From: Symbiodinium sp. CCMP2592
Lineage: Eukaryota; Sar; Dinophyceae; Suessiales; Symbiodiniaceae
Length of the DNA stretch: 64,000 bases
Direction of reading: 5' to 3'
Assembly: GCA_905221615.1 (NCBI GenBank)
Contig: CAJNDT010006136.1
Coordinates: 549,001 to 613,000 of the forward strand
The position numbers and the translations under genes were made by a program. Shown here in pieces: positions 7,425 through 64,000 of the stretch. The notes under the pieces are model-generated. The model saw only the letters and a program-made list of their open reading frames with translations. It had not been told where the DNA came from and searched no databases. How positions within the stretch are numbered: the first letter of the stretch is position 1; the number at the start of each line of letters is the position of its first letter.

Positions 7425-7429
7425 ATCTT

Positions 7430-23482: not shown

Positions 23483-23853
23483 AAAGACCACGAGTATGAC
23501 AGAACGAAATAAGAAAATGAGACTCGCGGACGAGGGTACCCTGGTTTTCTTGTTTTAACAGTGCTTGGTATTTTATGTACAACCCTATCAATCGCAAGAT
23601 CCAGAGTCTCATTTTCTTAATCCAATGTTTTCTTAAGTAGTGCTGTCGCTGTAGTCGCCCAGTGCCATGGGACAGGCAATCTCAAGGCTTATAGGGCTCA
23701 GAAATGCGAGTTGAGCTGTTAGAGAGGTGGGGTCTAGGGCTCCAAACCTCAAGCCGAATCTTTAAACATCGGACCCCAAAACTACAGATTCCTAGATCTA
23801 AGGTGTTGAACTTTAAGACCCTCAGCCCTAAATGCCAACAGCTTCGATTTCAG

Positions 23854-36114: not shown

Positions 36115-36650
36115 CCTGAGCCCTGAACCCTGAACCGCGAAGGCGCAAATCCCTAACCCTGATCCCTACCTAAACCCCCAAAAGTAGGTAAAATAATAGC
36201 CCAAAACCTATAAAAGGCCATTATTCTACATACTTGTGGGGACCAGGTATGTTCTACAGCCCTAAGGCCCTCATGCCCTACAGCCCCAAACCGAATACCC
36301 TGGCACCCGAAAGCCCCACATCCCCAAAGCCCGAAGCCCCAAATCCCTAATGCCCTAAGTCCCTAACACCAAAGCTAAAACCTCAAAAGCCTGATCCCTA
36401 AAACCCTCAAAACATGTAAAACCCCAAAGCCCTAAACAACACCAAATCCTTAAAACCCTAAAACCCTAAAGCCCTAACGACCTAAACCCCAAACCCCAAA
36501 TCCTTAAGACCCTCAAAACCCTTTGGCCAACCCAAAATCCTTAAAACCCTAGAGCCCTAAAGCCCCAAACACCGTAAAACCATAAACACCAGATCCTTAA
36601 AACCCTAAAACCATAAACACCAAATCCTTGAAACCCTGAAACCCTAAAGT
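36115..36650 (+). repeat. very degenerate CCCTAAA-derived tract
   Basis: CCCTAAA, CCCCAAA, CCTTAAAA and AAACACCAAATCC words over 500 bp. A weak palindrome at 36168-36247 (AAAGTAGG... and complement) is embedded near the left end. Confidence 0.7.
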
Positions 36651-36907
36651 TCCATCTCCTGCCTAGGAGCCTCTCAGTCGATGGCTTCTGTATCCATACT
36701 CCCCTCCAGTTGCTCGGCGTTTATTCTTAGGGTTCATCAGGGCCTTGGGGGCCTAGGGTTTAGGTTTTAGGGTTCAGGGCTTCAGGGTTTTCGGGCTTTA
36801 GGGGCTAATCTTGTAAGGTTTTCGGGCTTAGGGTGTTTTGGGCTTTAGGGTGTTGACAGGGTTTCGGAAGTTTTGGAATTTTAGGGTTTGGGGTTTGGGG
36901 GTTCCGG

Positions 36908-36994
36908 GCCGAAGTTGCCGGCATGTCGCCGGAAGTCAGCCAGCAGAGGATTTCGGACGTAGAGCTCAAGGGCTCAGAGTTTATTCGAGCTTAG
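36908..36994 (+). CDS. exon-like island (unknown host protein)
   Basis: AEVAGMSPEVSQQRISDVEL then KGSEFIRA and a stop, strongly protein-like. Confidence 0.42.
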   Translation, partial: AEVAGMSPEVSQQRISDVELKGSEFIRA

Positions 36995-37077
36995 GATCGG
37001 GTTCAGGGGTTTAGGGATTTAGGGTGTAGGGGTTTAGGGTCTGGGGTGTTTTGCAGTGTGTGGTGTTTGCATCGAGG

Positions 37078-38719: not shown

Positions 38720-38901
38720 TACGTGAGATAAACCCTTAATGATAACCAAGATCCTCGCAATGATTGAATGAAGAACTCGGAATCTCAATGTCACAACGAA
38801 TGCTAGAAGAGCGCTCCTTCAACGCCCAATCTTTTTTCCTCGAACAAAAACAGCCTTGACGTCGGACGAAGCGGTCTGCATCCTGGGGTCAGCTTCACGC
38901 A
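38720..38901 (-). repeat. R2 3' LTR
   Basis: 182 bp, identical to 50968-51149. In element orientation TGCGTGAAG... to ...CTCACGTA, so the ends are TG...TA rather than the usual TG...CA. Confidence 0.93.
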
Positions 38902-38913
38902 CTCCCCCTTTCC
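38902..38913 (-). other. R2 polypurine tract
   Basis: In element orientation GGAAAGGGGGAG lies directly before the 3' LTR. Confidence 0.8.
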
Positions 38914-39355: not shown

Positions 39356-42300
39356 TTAGTCGGACTCCTCTTCAGAAACCAACCCAATCTCAACCCGCTC
39401 TAAGTAGTCCCCTACCAACCAATGGAATTCCGACTTCACCCTGTCGTTATAAGGCTCAACGTCGATCTGCAATCCCGCACGCCAAAAACAAAACAGTATG
39501 CGACCACGATGCGGTACACTCTCACTTAGAGGCATGGGGACCACATCCATCGACCCAGTTTGACAAAAGGCCTCCGCTCGCGCCCTTTTAGCACGACAAG
39601 CCCTGACGACAATGAGCCTACAGAACTCCCAAGTCAGGATAACAAGAAGGCACCGACCTATCTCCCACATCGTTGATCCATCACATCCTAGCCCCTGGTC
39701 CTCCCCGGGTAAATCCACATCTTGAGCTCGAGGCCGCACTTGAACTGCCTGCTGCATCAATGGTGCCTCACAGCCTGAACCTGAATGATCCCCAGAAACC
39801 GCTTCCGCTGCAACCGCCTTAATGCAACCACAGCAGAACCATAACACCAGGAGCACCCAGATCAGCACACTGCGAGGGATCCTCAAAGCCCCTCCTAGGT
39901 GTCCCGTAGCATATCGAGGGCTATCCGAACTCCCGCTAGGCATCTCAGCTCCAACGGTCAGGGCATCACCGACAGGAGAAACTAAACCCTGAAAGGCTTC
40001 CCAATCACCCGTATTCAGCCCTTGAGCGACAGTCTCGATCTCAGCCTGACTCCAGCCCTCAACAGGAACCCAAACTGTATCATCAAGATACGTACACACT
40101 AACGTTCCTTCGCGGGCTTCGTAGTGAGGCCCGGCCGATTGTGCCGCTTCGGGCGACACACGACCCTCGAGATCAGCAGATCGATTCACACAGAACCCGC
40201 TCGAACTACTCGCTTCACTGGCTGACACAACTGAAGGCTCGACTGTAGACATTCCCGAATCCTCTGATTCCGAGGACTCGAGCAATTCTTGTGCCAACGG
40301 CGCAAACCGACCAGCCCATCCACCAGGCTCATCGCGGGGCCTAAGAGGCCTCTCATCGATCGAACCATCATCATCAACCTCATCATCCACCTGCACCTGA
40401 TCCCCAACCTCGCTGGAACCAAATGGATAGTGAACCTCACCAGTATTCATGTAAGCGGTGGCAGCATCAAAGGTATCTTGCGAAGGAGCTACATAAAGGG
40501 GCCACCTCTGGCGTAGCCACACCGTAAGTGCCAACGTAACACTGCTCCGAAAACCTGGTGCCACTGCCCTGAGAAATCTCCAAGACGATACTCGGTCTCC
40601 CAGAAGATCCAGTACACACCATCCGCATACCATGAACACTCGCCAAAGATAGTGAGCTACCATTCGAGGGGGACCTTCAACATACGGAAAACGAGACACC
40701 CGCAGGGTCTCGGCACAACTGCCGGGCACCTGGTTAGAGGTCTCCACATGTGACCCCAAATGGCCCGTGGTGATAAACTCCTCCACAGCTATCTGCCATT
40801 GAGGAGAATCGAATACCAGAGCAAAAGGGCCCTGCCTCATAACTTCCGCCACAGCAGCATATAGGGCATACCGTACTCCAACTGACACCACCCGAAGATG
40901 TCTCCACTCGGAAGCTCTCTCTCCTAAAGCCCACAAAACTTGCCCTCCAACTTGAGAAAACACATGGAGCAAGTAATGGACCGACATCCAGGAGCCCACG
41001 TACGGAAACCTATCAACCAACATGGCATCACCTTGGTAGTCTTCATAGCATAATCCCTGCATTGGAGCCGCTGTCATACCATGACTGCTAGAACTACCGC
41101 CCACCTGCACATTGGGTGACGGTACAGAATCAACTAGCTGCGCGCTGGAACTCCCCCCGATCTGACCACTGGAATCCCCATGACCTTGAGAGCCTGAACT
41201 CACATTCTGAACACTGGAACTCCCCCCGATCTGACCGTTGGAATCCCCAGGACCTTGAGAGCCTGAACTCAAATGCTGAACACTGGAACTCCCCCCGATC
41301 TGACCGTTGGAATCCCCAGGACCTTGAGAGTCCGAACTCCACTGAGTCAAGCCGTCTGTTGATAAACTCACGGGTCTCCAGCCAGCCCCAAGTCCTTGAA
41401 ACGCAAAAGTGGCCTCTACTTGACCCGGAAAATCTCCTACATACATCCCAGTATCCCGAAGACGTCGCAACAAGCCAACCGTGGACTCCGACCTAAACCC
41501 TCGAGAGGCACCTCCTAGCTCTGCCCATTCCCTAGCTTGCACTCCCAGAAGGACAGCTAGTTCACTCCCGCAGAATCCTAACAACCAAATTAAAAACCCC
41601 GAACCATCGAGGCCCGAAAAACCTGGGCTCGCCTCCCTATCCGCAGAATCACTTACCGGCGCTCCTACAGTTGCAGTATCCTCATCCTGGGCCTGCTCTT
41701 CACTAGGTACTTCCAGCCCTGTGAACCAGGACGGGGACGGTCCAAACCTGTTCATGAACACCGGAGGCTCCAAAACCCCGCCTGACTCAAGGACCCTCCT
41801 AATCCTCGCCCTCTGAACAAAGGTAAGCCCCGACTCCCTTTCCATGGCTTCAAACTTAGCCTGCGCGGTAGCCCACTCGGACTCACTGAAAGTATCATCA
41901 TCACCCGCTGGCTCGGCTTCTGTACGGCTTCCGGATGCTTCATCGCTAGCTTCAATCGCATTCAAGGCTACCGCTTCTGATTCGACCGGCTCAACTTCAC
42001 GGCCTTCCGAAGGATCTCCTGCACTAAACCCCTGGGCCCCGTAAAGCCAAACCCAACCCCAGCAGCCTAGGCACACGGAAAGTAGGATCCCCAACACCCA
42101 CGAAATCCAGCCCGAAGCCGCCTCAATCTGGCCTTCAAAAGGTTGCCCCTTCACACGAGGCAGCATAGCCAAAAGGACCAGACCTGCCACGGTTTTGGCC
42201 GTAACTTCTAGAGAATCACCCCCCCCAAGACTCAGCCGACTAAGCATACGAGCATCCCCTTCCGAACCCTCACTAGACACCCGAATCCTAATGTTGATGA

Positions 42301-45300
42301 GGTCTAAGAGTTTAAGGATACGGGAACGGGGCATCGGTTTCGTTCCTAAATCCGCCACCAACTGCTCTCCCGGCATATGCGACACTCGTAATATATTAGA
42401 GGAGATTCGTTCTCGAGCAGCATGTGCTCTCATACGAAGGTGTCTGTTACGCCAGCCGTTTGGCGACGTTTCAAAACTTCGGAGGGCGGCTTCGTTGTCC
42501 GCTAATAGTGAAATCACCGAGTCAGCCTCCACGGCCTCCTCGATGAGGGGCTGGATTGCTTCCCCTCTCTGGATTCCGACCACCATGGCCACCAGCTCTG
42601 ACTCCGCACTGCTCAAAGTCACGAATGGCTGCCTCGTCACTTCCCAGGCTAAGGGCACACTGCACCACACTACAAAAATGGCTTGCATCGAACGCTCCCC
42701 TCCAGGGCTGTGTGAAGCATCGGTATACACCTCCAACACTTTATCCGTGCGCGGCAGCGACAAAAGACCATGGTTCTTAAAGGTATCACCAAGCTGAAAA
42801 GGCACATCTATCCCCATTTCCATTGTCGTCTTCAAGTATGCAAGAGCTTGGCGGCCCAACGCAATCGAGAGCAAAGGTGATTTCGTCGCCTGTTGCCCGC
42901 ATCGTGCCACAACATATGCAATATCAGGTCGTGTTCGCGTCGACAACCACAATAATGCGCCTGTCACCGCTTGTGCTTCCTTTATCTGCTCCGCCGTGGC
43001 ATCCTCAGGGCTTTCCGGCTCTGTCCACTTCGTTATAGGCACATTCGCCTCCTCGTCGATGGCGTATCTGTTAAGAAGTTCCTGCACGTACGCTTTTTGC
43101 GTCATCCGATAACCTACATCGCTCCTAGACAATTCAATGCCGCAGAAAGTCACCGGCGTCCCAGAGACCCACTCCGGGTCGCTGGTTTTCCAATTGTTCC
43201 TTATGGCATGGATGAATTGGTGACATAGATCAACCGGACCGAAGAACGCTAAATCATCCACATATACCACCAAAATCCCTACAATGTCACCCAAGCTACC
43301 GTCCTTAAAGACCCGGACCAACCAGAGTGCATCGTCTGACTTCATCTGGACTAAGTGATGAACCAACCCTTCTGAAACAATCTCAATCTTCCGGAACTCC
43401 TCATCTCGGTAACGCCCCCAATCCCTAGGCGAAGTAGGCAGCCCGTACAAAGCTTTACGAATCCACCACCTATCATCCCTTTCCAAAAGACCAAGCTCCA
43501 CAAGAAAACTAGGTGGCTTAACCACAATCCGCTCCTCCTTTCCTTCGTAATCACTACGGATAGGAGCATACAGAAAAGCAGACTTCACATCGATGATAAC
43601 TCCCACCCATCTTGGAAACCGCGCTGCAAAGGTAATGGCTACTTTAACGGAGAGCGCTTCCGCGCCCGAAGCATATAAATCCTCTCTCGTGAGGCCCAGC
43701 TTCTCCGTTGGGAGATAGTTTCCGCAGCACACCGCTCGGCATCTACGCTTGCCCGTACCGGATTTCCTAGTAAGAACAACCTTGCCCGGAAGCTGAACTA
43801 CACTAACCCCTTGGGCAACCCAACTGTCCATCTCAGAAGCCTTAACCCTATCTACCGCTTTATTTGTAGTCTCAAGGCTAGTTATCTCATCCGCTGCAGG
43901 GTCTTTCCATTTCTGGAGCTCTCTCCTAGCCTCTGCTAAGCCTACAGTCCTGGTCTGAAGAAACTGATCGGTCGCTTCCTCGTGTCCTAAGGGCACATCT
44001 ACCTGAAGGGCCCGTACCGCAAACTCGTCATGGCCCTTAACAAGTCCCTGCTCAAGCCAATCACACAACAGCTCAACCCTACGCAGCTGAAGCGCGGTAG
44101 CAACCAAATCGGTTTCTTCATCCCCGGCTTCGCAAAGCTCCGCAGTGATAAACCGGCACAGCCTAGAGGCACATTGATGACAATGATCCCATCCTTCGCG
44201 GACCTCTTCCATAAATGGAGTGGGAATCGCTACTTCCCATTCAACGGCAAAACCAGCATCACCGTCCTCCGGCCCGTGCTGCCTCTCAGCCTTCCGCACT
44301 ATGGGTTCAGAAGCAATCTTCTCCCTTACCCCATCAACCGGAAATCCTAGGTCCCTCAAGACATCCCACTGTTCCTCCGAAGTCCCATGAACATCCCTAG
44401 GAACAAAGGCCGAAATCACCCACCGAGACTCACCATTCCAGGGCTCTGGGACGTGCCATCGGTCACCCGAGAACACCACCGGAGAAGCCTTCAGATCAAA
44501 CACCGAACCCGGCCGAACCTTTCCGGTAGGAAGCTCTTTACACACAGGCCCTTCATCATTGTCACTCTCAATCCAAAGACCTCCTCCAATGAAATCCCCA
44601 ACGGCACTCACTAAAATCTTGAAACCCTTGGCATTCCTTAAATCCCGATGGAGCGGCATCGTGGTATTCTGGGACACATACAAAGCAGTCCAAAGGTGAT
44701 TAGGATCCAAGCTTTTCACAAAGCCATTCAAGTACCTAGTTACCTCAGGATGCCTCAACGCCATCTTAGAAACCCCATGGAACCCTCCTACACCATACAA
44801 ACCCAACAAGGCCGCGCACCCATTACCGTGGAGCAATGACCTTCGAGCGGTCGGCAAATCACCAAAACCGACCTTTAAAACCTCGAGGCACTCACGCGAA
44901 GAAAACTCACCGCTCTCCAAACGCTCCTGCAACCACCCTTCTGGGTCCCCATGAAGGGCTTTCATAAGTTCAGGCGCAGCAAACAGCCCATCGCCTACAC
45001 AACAGACTTCAGGTGATTCCAATTGATCAGGGTCCCCCGAACTCGGCTCCCAAAAAACAAACTCGTCACTCTCAAGCAACGCCGAAATCGACACACCCTC
45101 AGAACTCCGAATCCCTGGAATAACCCCCAAATCTTCAGAAACATCAATTTTTAAATCTTTGGAATCGTTCAACTCGAAATTAAGCTCAGCATTCCAAACT
45201 AAAGAGCACCCCCCCCCAGAAGCATCTCCAGCGCTTCTGGAATCATCAGGGACTATGCTCTCCGCCACATCAGTAGCTGCTACAGCCCGCAAAACAAAAT

Positions 45301-48300
45301 CGGACGAGCGCTTACCGGCAAGGCGATAACGAGGTTTCTTCACATCCCCAGGCTGACCCCTGAGAGGGTGAATAGTATTCGTCAACAAAACCTTAGAAGG
45401 CTCGACCCCATCCCCCGGAATCCAAACCAAATGACCACCCGGTGTATCTGGAGCTGACCCAATGTAAACGCCCTCTATGGTCCTCGACTCCCACTGGGCG
45501 TCGTACCCCGTACGAGTCCTACGTCTCGCATGCACACGGATACCGAAAGGCAACAGAGGAGGTTGGGGATTACCTACAGATTCATTGAAGTTAGACCAAT
45601 TCCTAGCCGACGCATGCAGAAGCGCCAAAGGCCACATCGTCTTCTCGAGTTTTCCAATAAAAAGCAACTTTCGAGTAAACCCTTTCAGCGACTGAACCGC
45701 AAGTTCGGCTCGATTACCCGCTGGTGATTCGCCCGCGGTCCAGGTACAGTGAATACCTTTATCTCGGATCCAAGCAATCAACGCATGACTCCTTAACTCC
45801 TTAGCCCGATCTGCGTGATACCTCTGAACGGGGAATCCCGCCGCTTCTAGACGGTTAATAACAGCTTGGATCTGATGAAGAACTTCCCGGCCACGCTTGC
45901 TTCGCAAAGGCACCCCAAAAAACAGGGTCTTATGGCCCTTTTTCTCAAGCCCTGGATCCACTGCAACAGACTCCGCAGCCTCCGGTTTTTTCCCTGTCAC
46001 ACGATGGGTCACCGCCTTTATCCTTGCCACTACCTCCTCATGAGACAAAGGGATTTGGTCTAACTCCTTCATCAACTCATCCCCACTAAACTCTACCCCA
46101 CTCCCCGCAGTTGCTCCCGTAGCATTCCCCGGGTCCCCCACAGGAAGTAAATAACTACCCTCGAATGCCTCTCCTTCCGCTACAGGTACACTTTCTTTTT
46201 CCTCCGAAGGTTCGGGAATAAACCCGTCCGGAATTGCGTAGGCGCAAGCAAGGAAGTACTTATAACCCTCCCCTTTGTCCCGACCACTAGCCTCGACGTC
46301 CCAACCTCGTCCCGAAATCAACGGCCCTGCCAGATCCACACTTAGAGAATGAACTCCGGGAAACCCAGACCTCCAATGCGACCTCTGACGCCCTTGCGCG
46401 CTGATGCAAATAGGACAACCCCGTCGATAAGGAACATGGTCCCGTTGAACATGGAGAGCATAAGACTCCTCCTCAGACAATTTCCTCAGGATGGCCTGCC
46501 TCCTACCCACTTCTTGTTCATTCACACGCTCCCATTTCCAAAGAAGCCAAGCCCGTTGAATCAAGTTAGCTAAACCACTTCCCCAACACTGGTTCCGTGG
46601 CCCTTCAGCCCTTTCAACATTGCCTAATACCGAACGCAAGCGCTGATCCACCTTTAGCTTGTGCAACATCTCATACAGAAACCACGAGCTCGTAATAACA
46701 GAAGTCTCACGGACCCCTAGCATTCCCAAGCAACCCTGATCGAAGATGGCCCTTTCTAGAGGGTAACATGTAGCAAAAAAGGTATCACTCAAGCCCGATC
46801 CCACGGATTGTAAGGTCGAAGATAACAGGTCGTGGTCCGCCGCAAAAAACACCCTATGGCGATTGAGAACATCCCCTTCGCCCAGGCTTGCCCGCTCATA
46901 TCGGCGTTCCCCAGCTGCATTCGCTACAGCAAACACCAACATCAACCTCATAACCCTTATCACCTCTTCAACCTCACTTTCCTCCTGAACTCCTTGGGAC
47001 ACCTCCGGCTCGCGGGGCCCCTTCACCAGACCCCCTATAACCCCGCTACACGCCCACTTCATCAACAGGCTAAACACTAGTCTGGAACCTAGACCCTTAT
47101 CCGAGTTAGCCACCGATACCACCCGACCCAGACCCTTCCAGGAAGATGAAAACGGCGATACCGCAACCATCACTGAGCCAGCTTCAGCTCTAAAGACTGA
47201 CCGCCTCAGACGGCGATTCCAAGGGAGCTCAGACCAATCAGTCCGCTCAGAATCCAAAGCAGGAACGCACGCTCTGGCCAACAGCCCCACAGCTATTTCA
47301 GGAAAAAGAGCTCTCAGAAACACAAGCTGATCAACCTCCGTCAGCCCAGCCTCACCACGAGCCTCAACCCTTTCCTTCAGCCACTTCTTAGCCTGGCCAG
47401 GCTCAATCCCTTCAACCAAGTCCATAGCCTCAGCCTTACTCACCAATGGATCCCCTCTGCGTTTAGCCTCATACTCCTCTAGCAACTGAAGCCCCACAGA
47501 CCTCGGAATCAACGGACAGCCCTTAACTACCCTTACATTCAACGCTCCCAGGCGCCGATGCTTCACCTTGCAGCCTCCTTTACGCCAATTAATGGTGTAC
47601 CCCAGATCTACCAAATAGCTCGCTGGCAAGATAACTTGGCAATCCCCATTATGAAGAAGAGTCCCACAAGGGTTAATAAGCAACTCCGTACCTCCCGACG
47701 CGAGATCTACCTTAATGGACCGGCAACCTTCTGCCTCTCCTGACGCCGCCGGGCGTAGGGCATTAGTCGCTCCACTGTCTATCAGGCAATACTCAGGGTC
47801 AGACGCCGAAACCAACGCACTGCGAAGCCACGAGAGGTTGAGACTGGCCTCAGGTTCAACTCTAAGAGCCCTTAACGAAACTCCTTTGAGTAGCTTCGTG
47901 GCCTCCGCCACCAGGGCATCAGGGGTTAAGGTAGTTGAACCTGCTGCCGCTGCACTGACACTAGCACTCCCGGCTTCAGCGGAGGAGGTTGAATCCTCCA
48001 CCACTCCTTTCGCCTGAGCCCCCGCTTTGGCCTTAGCCTTACTCTTAGCAGAACCAGACCCCTTACCTGGATTCGCCTTTGGAGATGCCTCAGAACCCCC
48101 ATCCGACACCACTACGCGGTGCTCAGGCGGTACCAGCGTACAGTCGGGTCTGAAGTGGCCTGATTGGCCGCAGGCCAGACAGCGATTCTCTTTTCGAGCC
48201 TTCGCTCGATCATGCTTAAACCGGCAGCTATCTCCGAATCTACACCCCGAAGCATCCCCGAACTTATGACACAGTGCCACCTCAGAAGCCTTCCCCTTAC

Positions 48301-50887
48301 CTTTGCCTTTGTCAGAAGACTCCCCCTGACCTACTCCTACCGCCGAAACCTGGGGATTAGGAGGTGGTGGAGGGGGCGCTGAGGGTGCCTTACCAGCTGC
48401 CTGTTCTTTAGCAGCTGCCAGAGCTGCAGCCTTAGCCCGCTTATCGACCCCTCCATCTAGAGTTATCGACGCCGATTCACACTCCGCTTGAATAAGTCTC
48501 ACAAGTTGCACAACGGTGGCGACTGTAGGGTTATGATCGATGGCAAGCTGATGTCTAAAGGCATTCACTCTGAACCCTATCATCGGGTGAGTCCCTAGCA
48601 AAGACGACGTAGCACTATCAACCCCTCTAAGAAGCAACGATGGGTCCGGTAAAGTGGCATGTATTTCCCCCGCTCTTTGCAACCCTTGCTGCCAAGTGCG
48701 TAATCCCTTAATGGCTTCGCCAAACGTCTTGCAAACAGCCGGACTCACCAGCTGGGACAGCAAATGTGATCGTTCACTCGACCCGCCAGGTTGAAACAGG
48801 CAGAGAACCCTGAATAAAATAGCTGCGCTAGATAGCCACCTATTCGTAACCACGTCATCCCGAATGCTCTGAGGAACCGCCGCCAACAATAAGCTAACCG
48901 ACCGGCTCTCCACTCGCCCATACAGCTGACGATCAAACTCTCCTACCACCGTAGATGGGTCTACAGCAAGACGGCCTAAGGGATCGGCTACTAGCCACCT
49001 ACGGTACGCCGCGGTGGCTGGTCCTTCGACCCCCTGCCACCAAACTGACGCGCTCATCGATAAGCCCACCATTATCTGACGCACTTGCGCCAACCAGTTG
49101 CCACATACCACTGCCGAGTTAGCTAAATCCGATTGGCTAAGCTTAGGCAAATCCGATATATATCTAGCAGGCTCCTCAGGGCGAACGCTCTCAACACTAG
49201 AACCCCTTCCCAGCGGAGCCCCAATTCCGGTAGGTCCCACTCCGGAGCCCAAACCCGGGATTCCGACAAAGGCTTCATCAGGAAGCGCAACAGCCCTCCC
49301 CAATTGTGAACAACCCATATCTCCAGGATACCCTCCTCTCATCGAAGACTCTCCCGCAATTAAAGAACCCCGAGGCCCGTTAGCCCCATCGAAGCCTGAA
49401 ACCCCCAATTGCTCGGGACCCCTCAAGACCGCACCCAGACCTGCAGAAGGCGCAACCGGTACACCTAACCCAGCTCCCTGAACTCCCGGCCACCCGGCAC
49501 CCTCAACCGCGTGGGGCGCACCGGCAAGTGAGGTCGTTGGAGCCGTTCTCGTGGTCACCGGCAATGGCGGAGGACGGATCACAGTTCCGCCCGGGGAAAC
49601 AGGGTATCCCTGTTCGTCAAACCTCGAAGAAGAACCCACGACGGCCCTAGGCGTATGAAACCCTGAACCCTCAGGCTGAGCCCCAGAAGCTGCCCTTGCC
49701 CTTTCCGTAAATTGCCTCATAGTCTGAGGGGAACCCGAAGGAACTTCAGTTACTGGGACCCCGGGCACATCCCTCGGAACAGGTGGTAGAGCCGGTAGGG
49801 GCAAAGGAAGTGGCAGAGGAGGAGGTGGAACCCTATCCAAGGCCCCTGAAGCACCACCAGCCATCGCCATCATCGCCCTTGAACCTTCTACACCATCTCT
49901 TACATCCCAACCAGAAGACGAAGCCTCGACCCTTTGCCTTGCCCAAGATTGCGAACCCCCGGAAAGGACTCCATCCCAGCTTACCCCCAGGTTCCTATCT
50001 TCCAAACTTAGGTTATGCTGACTCGGGAATTCCTGGGCCAAAAACCTCTGTACATCTGCATTGGTGCGCGGTCCAAAAGTGACCGATGAAAGACTTGGAT
50101 CCGGCTGCGCTAGCCCCGAGTGCCAGCTCGAATGCGAACGGGACTCTGCCTGTTCCAGACGGCGCTTGAGCTGCCGGTTCTCTTCAAGAGCGTGGTACAA
50201 CAGTGCCTCAAACCTTTCCAGACGATCGGGTTCATCCGGAATCAACTCTGGCACTTCGTCACGTGTTCCCGAAGGATCCGCGCCCAAACCAAGAGCCTCT
50301 GCCCCTGACTCACCTCCTCTTTCAGCAGAAGTTTCCCCAAACGCTTGTGCCGACAAACCTGGCCTAGCTGGCTCTTCCAACTTAGTCTTAATCTTCGATG
50401 CTGATGACTCCACTTCGGCCGGCTTGACAGTCGCTCCTGAGTCCAGGTCCCGCGTGCCGACTCTCGCCACGCGAACCGCTTCGGCAGGATCAAAAGCAGC
50501 AGAATAATCCGGCTCCTTCAAGTGTTCAACATCCATTCCTCCCAAGTCTTGATCCCCAGACTCAATTCCCAGTCTGGCAGCATCCTGATCCAGCGAGGTC
50601 GGTCTTGACCGTATCAATTCCACTTCAGTCCGGACTTTTTCAGAATGAAAGGGGTTTGCTGTAGGCAGCGATCCACTTGTCTGCTGCCCTCCGGCTTCCC
50701 CCGACTCCAGCATGCCAGGACTGGCTTCCCCTGGAGCCATGCCATTCAGGGACGCCCCACCGGTATCCCTGCCGGAGCCACCTAATGACTCCGCCTGGCC
50801 CAAAGCTGTTCGGTAGTGATGGTCTCTGCTCTCTTCATCCTGCTCCTCAGCCATCCCAGACTTCCTTCGACGAGTCCGGATGTCCAT
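39356..50887 (-). CDS. R2 gag-pol-env-like polyprotein
   Basis: 3843 codons from an ATG 80 bp inside the 5' LTR. Gag: acidic N-terminus, short coiled coil, capsid-like region, CCCH finger (CHKFGDASGCRFGDSCRFKH, ~875) and CCHC knuckle (CLACGQSGHFRPDC, ~905). Protease active site DSGATNALRP near 1037. Integrase: HHCC (HVQRDHVPYRRGCPIC, ~1480), D in SVDLAGP (~1517), YHADRAKEL (~1690), GNRAELAV (~1726). Oxygenase-like domain ~2023-2164. RT with DVKSAFLYAPI and intact YVDD (~2543). RNase H with YTDASHSPGG and SSAESELVAM (~2720-2770). After ~2900: hydrophobic helices, three 23-residue repeats, a repeated ~90-residue module, two more hydrophobic helices and a basic tail. One frame means Gag:Pol ratio is not set by frameshifting. 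Confidence 0.93.
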   Translation of the reverse strand: MDIRTRRRKSGMAEEQDEESRDHHYRTALGQAESLGGSGRDTGGASLNGMAPGEASPGMLESGEAGGQQTSGSLPTANPFHSEKVRTEVELIRSRPTSLDQDAARLGIESGDQDLGGMDVEHLKEPDYSAAFDPAEAVRVARVGTRDLDSGATVKPAEVESSASKIKTKLEEPARPGLSAQAFGETSAERGGESGAEALGLGADPSGTRDEVPELIPDEPDRLERFEALLYHALEENRQLKRRLEQAESRSHSSWHSGLAQPDPSLSSVTFGPRTNADVQRFLAQEFPSQHNLSLEDRNLGVSWDGVLSGGSQSWARQRVEASSSGWDVRDGVEGSRAMMAMAGGASGALDRVPPPPLPLPLPLPALPPVPRDVPGVPVTEVPSGSPQTMRQFTERARAASGAQPEGSGFHTPRAVVGSSSRFDEQGYPVSPGGTVIRPPPLPVTTRTAPTTSLAGAPHAVEGAGWPGVQGAGLGVPVAPSAGLGAVLRGPEQLGVSGFDGANGPRGSLIAGESSMRGGYPGDMGCSQLGRAVALPDEAFVGIPGLGSGVGPTGIGAPLGRGSSVESVRPEEPARYISDLPKLSQSDLANSAVVCGNWLAQVRQIMVGLSMSASVWWQGVEGPATAAYRRWLVADPLGRLAVDPSTVVGEFDRQLYGRVESRSVSLLLAAVPQSIRDDVVTNRWLSSAAILFRVLCLFQPGGSSERSHLLSQLVSPAVCKTFGEAIKGLRTWQQGLQRAGEIHATLPDPSLLLRGVDSATSSLLGTHPMIGFRVNAFRHQLAIDHNPTVATVVQLVRLIQAECESASITLDGGVDKRAKAAALAAAKEQAAGKAPSAPPPPPPNPQVSAVGVGQGESSDKGKGKGKASEVALCHKFGDASGCRFGDSCRFKHDRAKARKENRCLACGQSGHFRPDCTLVPPEHRVVVSDGGSEASPKANPGKGSGSAKSKAKAKAGAQAKGVVEDSTSSAEAGSASVSAAAAGSTTLTPDALVAEATKLLKGVSLRALRVEPEASLNLSWLRSALVSASDPEYCLIDSGATNALRPAASGEAEGCRSIKVDLASGGTELLINPCGTLLHNGDCQVILPASYLVDLGYTINWRKGGCKVKHRRLGALNVRVVKGCPLIPRSVGLQLLEEYEAKRRGDPLVSKAEAMDLVEGIEPGQAKKWLKERVEARGEAGLTEVDQLVFLRALFPEIAVGLLARACVPALDSERTDWSELPWNRRLRRSVFRAEAGSVMVAVSPFSSSWKGLGRVVSVANSDKGLGSRLVFSLLMKWACSGVIGGLVKGPREPEVSQGVQEESEVEEVIRVMRLMLVFAVANAAGERRYERASLGEGDVLNRHRVFFAADHDLLSSTLQSVGSGLSDTFFATCYPLERAIFDQGCLGMLGVRETSVITSSWFLYEMLHKLKVDQRLRSVLGNVERAEGPRNQCWGSGLANLIQRAWLLWKWERVNEQEVGRRQAILRKLSEEESYALHVQRDHVPYRRGCPICISAQGRQRSHWRSGFPGVHSLSVDLAGPLISGRGWDVEASGRDKGEGYKYFLACAYAIPDGFIPEPSEEKESVPVAEGEAFEGSYLLPVGDPGNATGATAGSGVEFSGDELMKELDQIPLSHEEVVARIKAVTHRVTGKKPEAAESVAVDPGLEKKGHKTLFFGVPLRSKRGREVLHQIQAVINRLEAAGFPVQRYHADRAKELRSHALIAWIRDKGIHCTWTAGESPAGNRAELAVQSLKGFTRKLLFIGKLEKTMWPLALLHASARNWSNFNESVGNPQPPLLPFGIRVHARRRTRTGYDAQWESRTIEGVYIGSAPDTPGGHLVWIPGDGVEPSKVLLTNTIHPLRGQPGDVKKPRYRLAGKRSSDFVLRAVAATDVAESIVPDDSRSAGDASGGGCSLVWNAELNFELNDSKDLKIDVSEDLGVIPGIRSSEGVSISALLESDEFVFWEPSSGDPDQLESPEVCCVGDGLFAAPELMKALHGDPEGWLQERLESGEFSSRECLEVLKVGFGDLPTARRSLLHGNGCAALLGLYGVGGFHGVSKMALRHPEVTRYLNGFVKSLDPNHLWTALYVSQNTTMPLHRDLRNAKGFKILVSAVGDFIGGGLWIESDNDEGPVCKELPTGKVRPGSVFDLKASPVVFSGDRWHVPEPWNGESRWVISAFVPRDVHGTSEEQWDVLRDLGFPVDGVREKIASEPIVRKAERQHGPEDGDAGFAVEWEVAIPTPFMEEVREGWDHCHQCASRLCRFITAELCEAGDEETDLVATALQLRRVELLCDWLEQGLVKGHDEFAVRALQVDVPLGHEEATDQFLQTRTVGLAEARRELQKWKDPAADEITSLETTNKAVDRVKASEMDSWVAQGVSVVQLPGKVVLTRKSGTGKRRCRAVCCGNYLPTEKLGLTREDLYASGAEALSVKVAITFAARFPRWVGVIIDVKSAFLYAPIRSDYEGKEERIVVKPPSFLVELGLLERDDRWWIRKALYGLPTSPRDWGRYRDEEFRKIEIVSEGLVHHLVQMKSDDALWLVRVFKDGSLGDIVGILVVYVDDLAFFGPVDLCHQFIHAIRNNWKTSDPEWVSGTPVTFCGIELSRSDVGYRMTQKAYVQELLNRYAIDEEANVPITKWTEPESPEDATAEQIKEAQAVTGALLWLSTRTRPDIAYVVARCGQQATKSPLLSIALGRQALAYLKTTMEMGIDVPFQLGDTFKNHGLLSLPRTDKVLEVYTDASHSPGGERSMQAIFVVWCSVPLAWEVTRQPFVTLSSAESELVAMVVGIQRGEAIQPLIEEAVEADSVISLLADNEAALRSFETSPNGWRNRHLRMRAHAARERISSNILRVSHMPGEQLVADLGTKPMPRSRILKLLDLINIRIRVSSEGSEGDARMLSRLSLGGGDSLEVTAKTVAGLVLLAMLPRVKGQPFEGQIEAASGWISWVLGILLSVCLGCWGWVWLYGAQGFSAGDPSEGREVEPVESEAVALNAIEASDEASGSRTEAEPAGDDDTFSESEWATAQAKFEAMERESGLTFVQRARIRRVLESGGVLEPPVFMNRFGPSPSWFTGLEVPSEEQAQDEDTATVGAPVSDSADREASPGFSGLDGSGFLIWLLGFCGSELAVLLGVQAREWAELGGASRGFRSESTVGLLRRLRDTGMYVGDFPGQVEATFAFQGLGAGWRPVSLSTDGLTQWSSDSQGPGDSNGQIGGSSSVQHLSSGSQGPGDSNGQIGGSSSVQNVSSGSQGHGDSSGQIGGSSSAQLVDSVPSPNVQVGGSSSSHGMTAAPMQGLCYEDYQGDAMLVDRFPYVGSWMSVHYLLHVFSQVGGQVLWALGERASEWRHLRVVSVGVRYALYAAVAEVMRQGPFALVFDSPQWQIAVEEFITTGHLGSHVETSNQVPGSCAETLRVSRFPYVEGPPRMVAHYLWRVFMVCGWCVLDLLGDRVSSWRFLRAVAPGFRSSVTLALTVWLRQRWPLYVAPSQDTFDAATAYMNTGEVHYPFGSSEVGDQVQVDDEVDDDGSIDERPLRPRDEPGGWAGRFAPLAQELLESSESEDSGMSTVEPSVVSASEASSSSGFCVNRSADLEGRVSPEAAQSAGPHYEAREGTLVCTYLDDTVWVPVEGWSQAEIETVAQGLNTGDWEAFQGLVSPVGDALTVGAEMPSGSSDSPRYATGHLGGALRIPRSVLIWVLLVLWFCCGCIKAVAAEAVSGDHSGSGCEAPLMQQAVQVRPRAQDVDLPGEDQGLGCDGSTMWEIGRCLLVILTWEFCRLIVVRACRAKRARAEAFCQTGSMDVVPMPLSESVPHRGRILFCFWRAGLQIDVEPYNDRVKSEFHWLVGDYLERVEIGLVSEEESD
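39850..42130 (-). other. R2 env-like C-terminal extension with duplicated module
   Basis: Hydrophobic segments AKTVAGLVLLAMLPRV and WISWVLGILLSVCLGCWGWV (about residues 2920-2950) open the region. Two ~90-residue modules, each beginning RFPYV and containing a YLLHVF or YLWRVF helix and an E-W-R-H-L or S-W-R-F-L turn, lie at about 40440-41030. A third, weaker copy (FLIWLLGFCGSELAVLLGVQ) lies near 41560. Another hydrophobic helix (SVLIWVLLVLWFCCGC) follows near 39850. No known envelope family is recognised; the topology suggests a membrane protein. Confidence 0.6.
41146..41352 (-). repeat. 69-bp tandem repeats in R2
   Basis: Three in-frame copies of a 23-codon unit (core GPGDSNGQIGGSSSVQ). Confidence 0.9.
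44395..44822 (-). other. 2OG-Fe(II) oxygenase-like (TET/JBP-like) domain of R2
   Basis: In order: LGLYGVGGFHGV, PEVTRYLNGF, LWTALYVSQN, then PLHRDLRNAKG (H2080, D2082), VSAVGDFIGGGLWIE, and RWHVPEPWNGESRWVISAFV (H2145, R2155, spacing ten). All four predicted metal and co-substrate residues are present. The HRDxxN and GDFxGG pattern is the closest of the three to TET/JBP enzymes as I know them. The alignment with R3 covers about 80 residues without large gaps. Confidence 0.68.
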
Positions 50888-50949
50888 GGCCGAAGACTAC
50901 GGAGAAATTACACCCTCAGGGTCACCTAAGTTCAACCCCAATACTAATG

Positions 50950-50967: not shown

Positions 50968-51149
50968 TACGTGAGATAAACCCTTAATGATAACCAAGAT
51001 CCTCGCAATGATTGAATGAAGAACTCGGAATCTCAATGTCACAACGAATGCTAGAAGAGCGCTCCTTCAACGCCCAATCTTTTTTCCTCGAACAAAAACA
51101 GCCTTGACGTCGGACGAAGCGGTCTGCATCCTGGGGTCAGCTTCACGCA
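50968..51149 (-). repeat. R2 5' LTR
   Basis: 182 bp, same as 38720-38901, followed by the duplicate CTAAG. Confidence 0.93.
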
Positions 51150-51180
51150 CTAAGCCCTAAACCCTAAACCCTAAACTTAA
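51150..51180 (+). repeat. CCCTAAA array at the R2 target
   Basis: CTAAG duplicate followed by three CCCTAAA units. Confidence 0.88.
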
Positions 51181-52179: not shown

Positions 52180-52395
52180 CCCTCTTAGGTGTGCGGCTTG
52201 GGAGTGCAGAGTGTAGTCTCAAAGGGGAAAAGGAGGGACGGACCCCTACCCTATAATGGGCTATATAGTGGGTATATAGTGGCTATATTATGGGTATATA
52301 CCTAGGGGTCCTTATTAAGGGTCCATCCTTTTACCCTTTGATAGTCGTTGTGTTGCAGTACGCTGACAATGCGGAGACACAAGGCTTCCCGTACA
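52180..52395 (+). CDS. exon-like ORF interrupted by palindrome PE
   Basis: After CTCTTAG the frame reads VCGLGVQSV. It is cut by PE at 52219-52341 with duplication TAGTC, and resumes VVVLQYADNAETQGFPY. Removing the element and one duplicate (128 bp) restores the frame exactly. The right half then runs into a TTTAGGG array. No family is recognised. Confidence 0.52.
52219..52341. repeat. palindromic element PE (copy 3) inside an ORF
   Basis: TCAAAGGGGAAAAGGAGGGA... to ...TCCTTTTACCCTTTGA, duplication TAGTC at 52214-52218 and 52342-52346. The cleanest insertion signature among the palindromes. Confidence 0.9.
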
Positions 52396-52482
52396 TTTTA
52401 GGGTTTAGGGGTTTAGGGTTTAGGGGTTTAGGGTTTAGGGGTTTAGGGGTTTAGGGTTTAGGGTTTAGGGTTTAGGGTTTAA
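52395..52482 (-). repeat. TTTAGGG array
   Basis: About eleven units, several as GGGGTTTAGGG, G-rich strand on plus. Confidence 0.9.
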
Positions 52483-52488
52483 GTTAAA

Positions 52489-52591
52489 TGGGTAGTTGTC
52501 AAAATTAAGGTCCCTGCTTGGGCACCCTAGATGTTGGGTGCTGTATTATATTAGGGACCCAAAAAGGGACCATAATATTGACAACCACCCA
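52489..52591. repeat. palindromic element PI (copy 2)
   Basis: GGGTAGTTGTCAAAATT... to ...ATATTGACAACCACCC, with 4-bp duplication AAAT on both sides. Confidence 0.82.
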
Positions 52592-54619: not shown

Positions 54620-54637
54620 GGTTATCAGCCGTATAGC
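54620..54637 (+). other. R3 primer-binding site (Ile-GAU-like tRNA anticodon arm)
   Basis: GGTTATCAGCCGTATAGC directly after the proposed LTR end. The first 14 bases are shared with R2. Confidence 0.62.
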
Positions 54638-54684
54638 CTACGGCCTGGTCACAACTGGTTGGTTACAATACAATCAATCAGCGC

Positions 54685-57600
54685 ATGAGCGAACCGGAAC
54701 TTATTCCTGCAAGTCTGGATACAGTTACAAGCACCGTGAACCCTTTACAGCCCCCGGTCACGGGTGGCCATACAGGGAGCGGCGCCCCCGGCTTAGTTTT
54801 CCCGGCACCAGCCTCAGTCCAACAATTCAACGTCTTCGCACCACAGTATAGTGTTGAAGTACACGTTAACCAGATCAGACTGGAAGTCGGAGAACTAGAG
54901 GCTCAGGCAGAAGCAAGACACAGGCAACACATGCTGACCTATCAAGAAGCATCCGCAATTCACACAGCCGACTTGGAGCACAGAGCAGAACGAAACCACC
55001 TTGAAGTGGTAGCAGAACTGCAAGCAGCCTTGGCACAAAGCGAGTTCAAGGCGGCAAATCGTGAAAGGCTCCTGTTGTCGGAAATGACTTTGAGTCAAGC
55101 GCATTCCTATGATGAAGATCAAAGGTTGCGTCAAGAGTTAGCGGAACTTCAAAACAGCCGAATCACAGACGCATTGGATCAACATTTGGCGGAATCACGC
55201 TTTGCACAGAACCTCGAAGAACAGGCGAGACGGCACATCGAGAATTCCCAGGAAGTCATGGTTGAACAGTTCCAAGCACACTTTGAGTTGTTTAGGAACA
55301 GGCAGAAAGAAGAGTATGAGGCGTCCCTTGCTGTATGTAGGGAACAGAATGAAGAGCTTCAGGACAAGTTGGATTCTGCGGAAACTGCACTAGAGAAGGT
55401 CTTGGATCAGTACAATCCAGCTACTCCAAAGAGTCAGCCAGTGCCTGCTCCAAGTACCCCTGCAGGTCCTTCTGTCGTCCCCAAAGCTCCTCAAGCGCCC
55501 ATGTTCTCAATGCCGAACGTTATCCCCCAAGGCGCCAGATGTCTGTTCGAGTCAATGAATCCAGGAGGTTTGAATGCTCAGTCCATTCCGTCTGCAACAG
55601 CATCTTCAATCCCCAAGGCAGGACCTTCCCAGGCAGCGCCAGGAACAGCGGCCCCTCCAGCGGCCGATTCCGGCACGCCAGGGACGGATGCTTTCAACAC
55701 AGGTCTCCTAGAGACCCAAATGGCAATTCTTCAAAGCCTAAGAAACATAAGGGGTGAGAGCAAAACCGATGCTGACAAACCCAAAGTGAAAGAAGCAGAG
55801 TCTATCAGCCTTCCGGAGTTTCCAAGTCCAGAGTCGTATCGTTCGTGGAAAACGGCAGCTAGGGAAGCGGTCAGGGCAGCATCAGATTCACCTGATGAGG
55901 CGTTTAAATGGGTGATGAAGGCCTACGACAAAGACGCATCGCAGGAATCCCTTCGAGACCCCGAGAAATTCCTCACCCTTGACACGAAACTTCTTGCTGC
56001 ACTCACCAAAGTCGCTAGGGGAGAACTCTCCCGAGAAATCCTCATTTTTAAGGAGACAGAAGCGGCGAAATTCAGGGCGGTACGAGGACGACAGGTGCTC
56101 TACCTCTTCGATCAGTACTTCAAGACGAACGAGGAGGTTGGATCACTGTACTCCGTGGAGGACCTGCTGAAAGTAAGGTTAATCAATGACGACCTTTCAG
56201 TGTTCATTAGCAACTGGGAATCTGTCATGTCTGGGCTCAGCCACACACCGGACGAAACGACCCTAAGAGACATTTTCCTTCGTGAACTCAGGCAGTCCAA
56301 GAGACTAAAGTACGATCTTGAGATTTACGACAGGGCAGCAGAGGGCACGGATCAGCACACGTACAAGTTTCTTGTGAAGTCACTTAAGGATCTTTTGACC
56401 CGAGAGCGCAAACGCAAGAACCGTGACCGCATCGCAAGATCTCACGGAGATAAGTACGGTGCCCCTGCCTCAAAGTCTCCGGGCCGAACTTCCAGCCCCT
56501 CTTCAAGAGGAGGCCGTGGCAGATCGCAGAGCCCAAGGCCAAGATCACCCAGCAAAGGTAGATCCCAGTCTCCCAGCAAGCCTAGGACACCTAGCCCAAA
56601 GGGAGTATGCTATGATTACCTCAAAGGAACTTGCAAGCGAGGCAATAACTGCCCTTTCCTTCACAAGAAGAGATCATTGTCCCCCAAAGGCGACAAACCC
56701 AAGAAGAAAATCAACGTGACATGTAAGTTCTGGAAAGAAGGCAACTGCAACAAGGGTGATAAATGTCGGTTCCAGCATAAGGACATAGAGAAGCCCTCAG
56801 CTCCAGCACCTAAGTCCGAAGCAGCCCCGGCAGCTCCAAAGCCAGGGTCACCCAGGGCCAACTCTCCTGCTCCGCGCAGAGGGAGAAGTCCCAGGGCTAA
56901 GTCAAGTGACAAGGCCCCAAAGACGGCCGCATGCGCCATCGCGTTCGAGAATACAGCGGATCTTGAGATCTCGCCAAAGCTCGCTATGGCAGCGTCACAT
57001 GACGAGGACTACTGGGAGGTAGACTTCACCGGCAACAAAATCATCCGCCACCACAAGAAGTACCGAACAGATTGGTATGTTCCTGACAATTCATGTCCAG
57101 TGAACCCCAAGAAGCTTAGGAGCCAAGCTAAGCTCGAGCAGGTTTTGCCGGTCTCCCCTTTCGTGGGAAACAAGATCTACAACTGGAGGAAGACCCCAAC
57201 CAAAGGACCCGGCAGCACATGGGTAGGTAAGACGATCTTCTACATGCAAGAACTCCCTAAGGTGAGTTTCGACAGCACCGTAGAAATGATTGCCATCGAA
57301 CCGGAAGGAAAGCAGAGAAAGCATGCCTACCTTCCCAGGGTTTATGATGAAGTCTATCCCACTGTCGAGGCATGTCCACGCTCGAATCCTAAGGATCTGA
57401 AAAGGGCTCTTGTGTGGGCAAAGCAGTTTGCCACCATGATCGAATGCATGACTCACGACACGCCTGCGGGATGCGGGTATGAATGCATGGAGGAAGGCTT
57501 CCTCTGCGAGGAGTGCGAGCGACTTGCACGTCCGTCATGTGCAGGTCTGGTCCCCGGCTTAGAATTCCTAGCGGATACCGGAAGTGAAGAGGACCTCATC

Positions 57601-57999
57601 AGCAAGTCGGACTGCAGAACTCACTTCCCCGACGTACCTATTGAACCTGCCTCACGTCCTGTTTCTTTGATCACCGCCAACGGGCCGGTAAAAGGTAACG
57701 AAGCCGTTAAGCTAGAGGTCCCTGAAATCAACAAAATCCTCGAATGCTACGTGCTAGATTCAACGCCGCCGGTGTGCTCTGTTGGTAGGAGATGCATGGA
57801 TGAGGGCTTCGATTTCCATTGGTACGCAGGGAAGACGCCTTACTTCGTGACACCTGAAGGCCGGAAACTTTACTGCAAGCTGCGCGGGCGAGTCCCGGTA
57901 ATTGGGGATGGTACAATCGCCGTTCCCGCCAAGGATGAGAAAGCGGCTCATTCGCCAGTCATCCAGGCAACATCGGGTTTTCCCCGTTCAGCGGCCTAA
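54685..57999 (+). CDS. R3 gag-protease polyprotein
   Basis: 1104 codons, ATG 65 bp after the primer-binding site, TAA at 57997. Residues ~55-250 form a long coiled coil. A proline/alanine linker follows to ~365. The capsid-like part (~370-580) starts near SISLPEFPSPESYRSWKTAA. A Ser/Arg/Pro-rich basic stretch (~590-640) precedes two CCCH zinc fingers (C642 CYDYLKGTCKRGNNCPFLH; C680 CKFWKEGNCNKGDKCRFQH). The aspartic protease lies near the end (EFLADTGSEEDLIS, active-site D964). There is no CCHC knuckle; the CCCH pair probably replaces it for RNA binding. The last 60 bases overlap the pol frame. Confidence 0.85.
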   Translation: MSEPELIPASLDTVTSTVNPLQPPVTGGHTGSGAPGLVFPAPASVQQFNVFAPQYSVEVHVNQIRLEVGELEAQAEARHRQHMLTYQEASAIHTADLEHRAERNHLEVVAELQAALAQSEFKAANRERLLLSEMTLSQAHSYDEDQRLRQELAELQNSRITDALDQHLAESRFAQNLEEQARRHIENSQEVMVEQFQAHFELFRNRQKEEYEASLAVCREQNEELQDKLDSAETALEKVLDQYNPATPKSQPVPAPSTPAGPSVVPKAPQAPMFSMPNVIPQGARCLFESMNPGGLNAQSIPSATASSIPKAGPSQAAPGTAAPPAADSGTPGTDAFNTGLLETQMAILQSLRNIRGESKTDADKPKVKEAESISLPEFPSPESYRSWKTAAREAVRAASDSPDEAFKWVMKAYDKDASQESLRDPEKFLTLDTKLLAALTKVARGELSREILIFKETEAAKFRAVRGRQVLYLFDQYFKTNEEVGSLYSVEDLLKVRLINDDLSVFISNWESVMSGLSHTPDETTLRDIFLRELRQSKRLKYDLEIYDRAAEGTDQHTYKFLVKSLKDLLTRERKRKNRDRIARSHGDKYGAPASKSPGRTSSPSSRGGRGRSQSPRPRSPSKGRSQSPSKPRTPSPKGVCYDYLKGTCKRGNNCPFLHKKRSLSPKGDKPKKKINVTCKFWKEGNCNKGDKCRFQHKDIEKPSAPAPKSEAAPAAPKPGSPRANSPAPRRGRSPRAKSSDKAPKTAACAIAFENTADLEISPKLAMAASHDEDYWEVDFTGNKIIRHHKKYRTDWYVPDNSCPVNPKKLRSQAKLEQVLPVSPFVGNKIYNWRKTPTKGPGSTWVGKTIFYMQELPKVSFDSTVEMIAIEPEGKQRKHAYLPRVYDEVYPTVEACPRSNPKDLKRALVWAKQFATMIECMTHDTPAGCGYECMEEGFLCEECERLARPSCAGLVPGLEFLADTGSEEDLISKSDCRTHFPDVPIEPASRPVSLITANGPVKGNEAVKLEVPEINKILECYVLDSTPPVCSVGRRCMDEGFDFHWYAGKTPYFVTPEGRKLYCKLRGRVPVIGDGTIAVPAKDEKAAHSPVIQATSGFPRSAA

Positions 58000-63400: not shown

Positions 63401-64000
63401 CCACTTGCGAACTTTGCTAAGGAAAGCTTCCGCTCAGGAAACCAGCATCTGATCGCTAAGGCATCTTACAAGCACGAAGTCGCAGATCATGATGATTTAG
63501 AGGATTTCACATCTTCACATCTTGCTAATCTTGCGAACTTTAGGAAGGTGCTTGCCTGCCCCTGTGCAGCGGCTCATCAGAGCACGCCAGAGATGATTAG
63601 TGATCCCCGAGTGCGAGCAGAAGGCGAGAACAAGCCGTCGGCGCCAGCGACGATTGCCGCATCGGGTGACTCAATCAAGCGGGAGTGGGCTCACTACCAT
63701 ATGTGGGCCGGTGTCTTCGGACACGAGCTCGGACTCAACCCAGACCGTGACTGGGAAGAGAGCGTGAAACAGCTCTACACAGGCGCAATCGCGCAAACCG
63801 CTTTGTCTACGTGTCTGGGAGATGTTGATCATGGCTATAAGGCCCTCCCTAAGGTGGCACGGATCAACGACGAGGGGTTGTCGCGTTTCCAGCCCGGCGA
63901 TAGCCGTGGCCGTGAAAAAGCCTGCATCATTGTTTCCGACTCTACCCTCATTTTCAAGGCTGGGGCGAGAACATTCGTTGAGATGGCGGAAGACTTTAAA
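60299..64000 (+). pseudogene. R3 pol: RT, RNase H, oxygenase-like domain and open C-terminus
   Basis: A single frame open for over 1230 codons to the window end. RT continues SSPASMEAAKVIDVFG, LALYGHPDSGGIWEKH, YVDDFKMAGP (60638-60664). A ~170-residue charged insertion separates RT palm from the thumb/connection (LFAARMARWDLLRATQSLA). RNase H: LFCDADWSGEHDRKSTSGC and SSTESEVISA (61640-61790), then VDTLEQVADIFTKPFAE. The oxygenase-like domain is at 62522-62938. About 350 further residues of unknown function follow, with a hydrophobic stretch (GAVIITSLSLVTVVMTSL). Joining to the previous frame needs one extra C at 60299-60301. Confidence 0.85.
62522..62938 (+). other. 2OG-Fe(II) oxygenase-like (TET/JBP-like) domain of R3
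   Basis: GFFSFSGMQGITNITKRYPL, TWTSIAVNRD, then LLHADSRNLKG (H codon 62681, D codon 62687), ISFGDFSGGLLWVEG, and ESHHCVMPWKGTRFGLIAFT (H codon 62876, R codon 62903, spacing nine). All four signature residues are present. Unlike R1 and R2, the domain follows RNase H. Confidence 0.68.

Follow-up and report, generated by a model that had tools for sequence, protein, structure and literature searches.

A conserved domain in three copia-type elements

The 64,000-nucleotide stretch analysed here (the window; contig CAJNDT010006136.1 of Symbiodinium sp. CCMP2592, with positions counted from its first letter) holds three copia-type retrotransposons, R1, R2, and R3, and each encodes within its polyprotein a domain with the spaced residues HxD...H...R of Fe(II)/2-oxoglutarate (2OG) oxygenases. 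All three domains were found where the initial annotation had placed them. The core spans given there were correct for R1 and R3, but the in-frame core of R2 begins and ends one base inside each proposed end. By translation the R1 and R2 domains lie on the minus strand, their plus-strand translations containing stops, and the R3 domain lies on the plus strand.

5793-6482, minus strand: R1 oxygenase-like domain, full extent (amino acids 378-607 of open reading frame 5343-7613; core 5910-6341)
6180-6182, 5967-5969, and 5940-5942, minus strand: R1 codons for the HxD His, the distal His, and the Arg
44303-44956, minus strand: R2 oxygenase-like domain, full extent (amino acids 1981-2198 of open reading frame 39356-50896; core 44396-44821)
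44648-44650, 44453-44455, and 44423-44425, minus strand: R2 codons for the HxD His, the distal His, and the Arg
62345-63016, plus strand: R3 oxygenase-like domain, full extent (amino acids 687-910 of the frame starting at 60287; core 62522-62938)
62681-62683, 62876-62878, and 62903-62905, plus strand: R3 codons for the HxD His, the distal His, and the Arg

The three domains are homologous. Pairwise BLASTP gave 31% identity between R2 and R3 (E 2e-24), 29% between R1 and R3 (1e-14), and 29% between R1 and R2 (8e-11), and 25 of 151 columns were invariant in the three-way alignment; H, D, the distal H, R, and the motifs HxDxxN, GGxLW, and PWxG were identical in all three. The homologous region exceeded the span first annotated, reaching 218 residues in R2, 224 in R3, and 230 in R1, and runs from an N-terminal part with a conserved Arg (helical in a low-confidence predicted model) through the HxD...H...R core to a C-terminal stretch that closes with LGFP or a similar sequence. 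Across the six frames of the window, a regular expression for the spaced motif matched exactly the R1, R2, and R3 places, and the family profile likewise found only these (E 8e-54 to 5e-93, next best 0.24).

To the three window copies we added 50 loci retrieved from the 1.098 Gb assembly with the R2 domain as query, so that the sample leans R2-like, and removed ten exact duplicates and one stop-containing domain, which left 42 of the 53. The facial triad HxD...H that defines the Fe(II)/2OG oxygenase superfamily was invariant in these distinct stop-free copies (42/42 for H, D, and the distal H), as was the W of GGxLW (42/42), and the N of HxDxxN was present in 41/42. The superfamily also carries a basic residue about ten positions after the distal His, for the 2OG C5 carboxylate. 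Here it was Arg in 37/42 copies, and the five copies without it were the five short standalone open reading frames examined, all with Met. In an extended alignment of 35 members the tetrad read HDHR in 32/35, with the Arg at +9 or +10, and HDHM in 3/35. The distance from D to the distal H was 61-69 residues in these 35, and that from the distal H to the next tetrad position was 9 (20/35) or 10 (15/35). Further upstream, an Arg that in R2 precedes the HxD His by 64 residues was conserved in 30/35, and there was no conserved Arg at -5. The initial annotation had described a tetrad shared by diverged elements, with the Arg nine or ten residues after the distal His, and would have abandoned the idea if these residues varied freely among related copies; they do not.

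The domain is under purifying selection, as had been proposed from the residues alone. Among 21 distinct stop-free copies of the R3 type, the ratio of nonsynonymous to synonymous differences per site (pN/pS) was 0.094 in the core domain, compared with 0.047 in 26 copies of a 300-codon upstream stretch that covers RNase H and the domain's N-terminal part, and 0.401 in 21 copies of a 200-codon downstream stretch that includes the C-terminal domain end. A codon-column count for the R3 upstream flank (241 nonsynonymous of 300) clashed with the pairwise value, presumably through out-of-register copies, and was discarded. Nine pairs of the R2 type, in which some members recur, gave 0.103 for the domain, 0.266 upstream (450 codons, two unalignable pairs dropped), and 0.201 downstream (four dropped). 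The domain is therefore more constrained than most of its flanks and less so than the RNase H side of R3. One pair differed by 21 synonymous changes and a single nonsynonymous change, and with pN/pS near 0.1 we rejected neutral decay. That retrotransposons here carry an oxygenase-like domain under selection is well supported.

Host elements and copies elsewhere in the genome

R1, R2, and R3 each have the copia order gag, protease, integrase, reverse transcriptase (RT), RNase H, as recognized by motifs, BLASTP, and Pfam, partly below Pfam cut-offs. The RT is of the RVT_2 type in R2 (E 4.9e-8) and R1 (1e-9), with a weak match in R3 (0.09-0.26). The long terminal repeats (LTRs) of R1 are identical to each other, as are those of R2.

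39356-50896, minus strand: R2 single open frame of 3846 amino acids, encoding gag, protease, integrase, the domain, RT, RNase H, and a long C-terminal region
38720-38903: R2 LTR copy 1, 184 bp; both copies have the same sequence
50968-51151: R2 LTR copy 2, 184 bp
9303-11792, minus strand: R1 gag frame with a CCCH finger and a CCHC-like knuckle (motifs, Pfam)
7430-9352, minus strand: R1 protease motif (DSGA) and N-terminal part of the integrase (motifs, BLASTP)
5343-7613, minus strand: R1 integrase core followed by the oxygenase-like domain (BLASTP)
3710-5485, minus strand: R1 RT (RVT_2) and RNase H frame (Pfam, BLASTP)
2857-3173: R1 LTR copy 1, 317 bp; both copies have the same sequence
11922-12238: R1 LTR copy 2, 317 bp
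54637-57999, plus strand: R3 gag frame with two CCCH zinc fingers and a protease motif (DTGS) (Pfam, motifs)
57939-60413, plus strand: R3 integrase frame (rve E 1.6e-4 and retroviral SH3 1.1e-3, both below Pfam cut-off)
60287-64000, plus strand: R3 RT, RNase H, and domain frame, continuing beyond the window end (2383 amino acids open in the genome)

Landmarks along the R2 frame are a CCCH-like motif at amino acids 874-898, a CCHC-like motif at 906-920 (both below the Pfam cut-off), the protease DSGA at 1040, the integrase at about 1480-1800, and RVT_2 at 2402-2615. R1 has the same layout with its coding split over four frames. In R3 the domain instead follows RNase H, and about 1,470 more open codons follow the domain. 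The three had been called clearly different elements, and they do differ: BLASTP relates R1 to R2 in protease, integrase, RT, and RNase H, whereas the RT and RNase H of R3 had no match to either at 1e-3 and its integrase matched that of R1 only weakly (47 residues, ~5e-4). Despite the unmatched RT and RNase H, the R3 domain matched the R2 domain at ~2e-21 in the comparison of element proteins.

Several features of these elements lie outside the domain. The Gag CCCH zinc fingers reached E 3.6e-12 in R3, which has two, 3.7e-6 in R1, and 7e-4, below the cut-off, in R2, with a CCHC-like knuckle beside them in R1 and R2. Beyond RNase H the R2 frame continues for about 1000 codons without a Pfam match (39356-42200, minus strand) and includes a 69-bp tandem repeat at 41138-41344. 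R1 contains a 60-bp minisatellite in gag (10861-11197) and an 80-bp tandem duplication where two of its frames meet (7460-7619).

The domain recurred widely in the assembly. We scored 150 of 4815 first-look candidates for the R2 domain, and all matched at E <= 3.1e-18, 147 of them without a stop in the domain and three with one. For the R3 domain there were 4660 first-look candidates and at least 151 matches, at least six with stops among the matches listed; more than 90 of the listed matches had at least 86% identity to R3, about 20 of these in a 3166-codon frame. A few places in the R3 list take up two rows each, and a few places are common to the R2 and R3 lists. A third layout, read from C1768 (L053, L087), has gag CCHC and protease motifs, then the domain, integrase (rve 2e-7), and RVT_2 (2.6e-22), and the domain likewise precedes RVT_2 at L055 and L056. 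The domain thus stands at three or more positions within copia polyproteins, a distribution that points to repeated capture or to relocation by recombination.

A standalone form also occurs, as open reading frames of 178-213 amino acids with HxD...H intact and Met in place of the 2OG Arg (L031-L035; L051, 2961-3578, minus strand; L052, 2691-3329, plus strand). These lie in repeated units in which DNA homology extends past the open reading frame (over ~2 kb in the case of two copies). The surroundings of two copies showed no RT motif, and at L052 an integrase-like stretch was noted by eye about 1.6 kb from the open reading frame. This form may represent a gene family of the host or a different element, and may use a different co-substrate.

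Candidate function and its alternatives

We read the ~220-residue Pol domain as a divergent Fe(II)/2OG oxygenase, closest in motif to TET/JBP and most likely oxidising a base in element DNA, and give this a probability of roughly 0.55. The domain would have the 2OG-oxygenase fold and activity, with the two His and the Asp binding Fe(II) and the Arg binding 2OG. In a Pfam scan of 35 core members with an E limit of 10, four matched Tet_JBP and three other families were matched by one member each; with 35 extended domains, Tet_JBP was matched by three and two other families by one each. Apart from Tet_JBP, no Pfam family had matches in two or more members, and no other 2OG family appeared at the filters used. 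In ten of the 35 scanned singly, Tet_JBP matches were seen for L042 (E 0.019), L043 (0.042), and L037 (0.077), at profile positions 75-161 of 164. These E-values are for 24,736 models; for a single model named beforehand, 0.019 becomes ~8e-7 per sequence and 3e-5 for 35, with members that are not independent of each other.

Comparison with individual TET/JBP enzymes points the same way at the HxD segment. TET2, NgTet1, and CMD1 share the HxD...H triad, and HRDLHN of TET2 is close to the H[RKA]DxxN found here. The HxD segment of TET2, with letters taken from PDB chains, scored 9.6 bits on the family profile, a value equalled by 0/2000 full shuffles, by 2/2000 when only H and D were kept, and by 33/2000 when all of HRDLHN was kept. 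TET/JBP enzymes hold 2OG with Arg pairs, Arg1261/Arg1896 in TET2 and Arg224/Arg289 in NgTet1 (PMC7854593, the CMD1 paper), of which Arg1896 and Arg289 bind the C5 carboxylate (PMC7854593). A candidate equivalent of this second Arg is present in the domain, and the Arg at +9/+10 could act as Arg1896 or Arg289 does; NgTet1 and CMD1 are likened here by published residues.

Structures were predicted for the three window copies, as low-confidence models. In a structural second look, all 32 entries listed were Fe(II)/2OG oxygenases, including AlkB-type entries (6ie3, FTO, ALKBH1, ABH8), which were not singled out, and HIF prolyl hydroxylase 2. TET2 was not among the entries listed, which carries no weight either way.

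The substrate might instead be RNA, with the domain demethylating, for example, the element's genomic RNA, and we regard this as an unlikely alternative. Such an enzyme would suit a protein encoded together with RNA-handling Gag and RT, the Gag bearing zinc-finger motifs. However, none of the 35 core or 35 extended members matched the AlkB model of Pfam (2OG-FeII_Oxy_2) at E up to 10 (the HMMER filters, which drop most weak matches, being on), AlkB-type structures did not stand out from the second-look list, and HxDxxN is what we take to be a TET-like and not an AlkB motif. A functional precedent for the RNA substrate does exist in an LTR retrotransposon, since orchid Ty3/Gypsy elements carry an AlkB (ALKBH5-like) RNA demethylase open reading frame with activity in vitro (PMC9289625).

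A further set of results weighs against any oxygenase and would suit a jelly-roll or other domain that serves structure or binding and in which H, D, H, and R are otherwise used, for example in binding zinc. No Pfam or NCBIfam model was reached at threshold, in spite of the very many copies in this genome. The Tet_JBP (PF12851) matches scored 12.7-14.6 bits, at least 20 bits short of the gathering cut-off of 34.9, and weak matches to implausible families were of equal size: PHROGs gave 12 weakly matched families, the one with most members (5/35) being queuine tRNA-ribosyltransferase (best E 0.022), and NCBIfam gave three weak names, with dihydroorotase in 2/35 at 0.077. Profile searches of the PDB (A1, A2, A4) returned no oxygenase. 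The TET2 distal-His segment did not match the family profile (915/2000 shuffles), nor did anything outside the HxD segment, and Foldseek found no significant match to the predicted models in the PDB or BFVD. Because the Tet_JBP matches stay below threshold, we call the domain TET/JBP-like, not a TET/JBP member; the same label in the initial annotation is borne by the only Pfam family that more than one member matched, but the shortfall in score leaves the kinship suggestive. The initial annotation would also have yielded to the lack of a significant profile match together with a fold other than a jelly-roll. Only the first of these was observed, and weak structural evidence points to a 2OG-oxygenase fold. 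The order of the triad, the D-to-H distance, and the Arg position fit the 2OG-oxygenase pattern, and together with the sub-threshold Tet_JBP matches and the uniform second-look list they make a domain without oxygenase activity improbable.

Protein-acting 2OG oxygenases are common, and the domain might hydroxylate a host factor, or Gag or Pol of the element that encodes it. HIF prolyl hydroxylase 2 in the second-look list would agree with this, but neither the 35 core nor the 35 extended members had a prolyl-hydroxylase-type Pfam match, Tet_JBP being the sole oxygenase family named, and we hold a protein substrate to be quite improbable. Chance resemblance in decaying, unselected repeats, for which one could cite the spread of coding over several frames in the window copies of R1 and R3, is refuted by the 42/42 triad, the pN/pS values, the 147/150 stop-free R2 matches, and the restriction of motif and profile matches in the window to R1-R3.

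We also looked for relatives outside the genome. Profile A1 gave 33 pattern matches in viral contigs and 49 in the genome contigs of a search for prokaryotic relatives, none of which was confirmed, and tblastn with the R2 domain found no phage relative. At the sensitivity used, these two queries thus provided no prokaryotic, viral, or phage relative.

Proposed mechanism, precedents, and flanking repeats

Under the reading as a base oxygenase, the domain would be made with Gag-Pol, hence beside integrase and RT on the element RNA and complementary DNA (cDNA), and carried with both enzymes into the particle. The intact triad and Arg could couple 2OG decarboxylation to oxidation of a nearby substrate. 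Nucleic acid is the most likely one, because of the TET-like motif and two precedents (PMC9289625, PMC12730594). The base may be 5-methylcytosine or thymine in element cDNA or in a new insertion: oxidised 5-methylcytosine could relieve methylation, and hydroxylated thymine would yield 5-hydroxymethyluracil. The element would thereby be shielded from silencing by host methylation, or its DNA made host-like. Release by the protease, like the substrate and timing given here, we infer.

The nearest precedents are in other kinds of mobile element. The orchid Ty3/Gypsy elements (PMC9289625) share with R1-R3 an LTR retrotransposon setting, a 2OG-oxygenase(-like) domain with HxD...H and Arg, and a proposed role against host control. 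In contrast, the orchid gene is an additional open reading frame, recently acquired and recognisable as an ALKBH5 homologue, whereas the domain here lies inside Pol of copia elements, belongs to no recognised family, is diverged, and occupies several element lineages and positions. For the plant copia elements included in that study, no domain gain is reported. In fungi, DNA transposons and Helitrons carry TET/JBP genes that pass between element lineages (PMC12730594, 2025). The likeness lies in mobile elements with a TET/JBP-type (here TET/JBP-like) oxygenase crossing lineages; the fungal carriers differ in being DNA transposons with the TET gene beside the transposase, and the study noted no TET/JBP in any retrotransposon. 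Retroelement-borne DNA methyltransferases in dinoflagellates, mentioned in the initial annotation, are documented for Symbiodinium (PMC5890265). They too are cases of dinoflagellate retroelements acquiring a DNA-modifying enzyme, but are methyltransferases in LINE and tyrosine-recombinase-bearing elements, not copia; the words dioxygenase, oxygenase, TET, and 2OG are absent from the main text of that paper. Accessory domains are treated in PMC6338049, and PMC11453091 is a review.

Among the papers listed by our searches of the open-licence literature, judged by titles and the start of abstracts, we found no report of an oxygenase in copia or of TET/JBP in a retrotransposon. This agrees with the earlier statement that no oxygenase was known from copia elements, although one is known in another LTR superfamily, the orchid Ty3/Gypsy AlkB (PMC9289625). 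The observation itself came out stronger than first annotated. A bolder and rather doubtful extension is that this is the first TET/JBP-type base oxygenase in a retrotransposon, an old part of copia Pol that moved between lineages and positions and is present in at least hundreds of copies in one genome, and that the elements oxidise their own thymine or 5-methylcytosine as a possible source of 5-hydroxymethyluracil on dinoflagellate repeats. Multi-mapping reads of Breviolum show an approximately twofold enrichment of 5-hydroxymethyluracil, interpreted by the authors as suggestive of repeats and transposons (PMC11071213). A repeat-encoded base oxygenase, if true, would offer a direct cause for that base on repeats in dinoflagellates, and a base-oxidising enzyme carried by retrotransposons would, if true, be relevant to the ways in which mobile DNA evades silencing by its host.

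Telomere-like CCCTAAA/TTTAGGG arrays are interspersed in the window (1780-2005, 2348-2549, 12229-12590, 36430-37066, and 52394-52497). Because R1 and R2 each directly adjoin CCCTAAA-type repeat sequence, the elements may favour such sites; no clear target-site duplication was seen for either element beside these repeats. A separate tandem repeat at 23070-23558 is open in frames of both strands.
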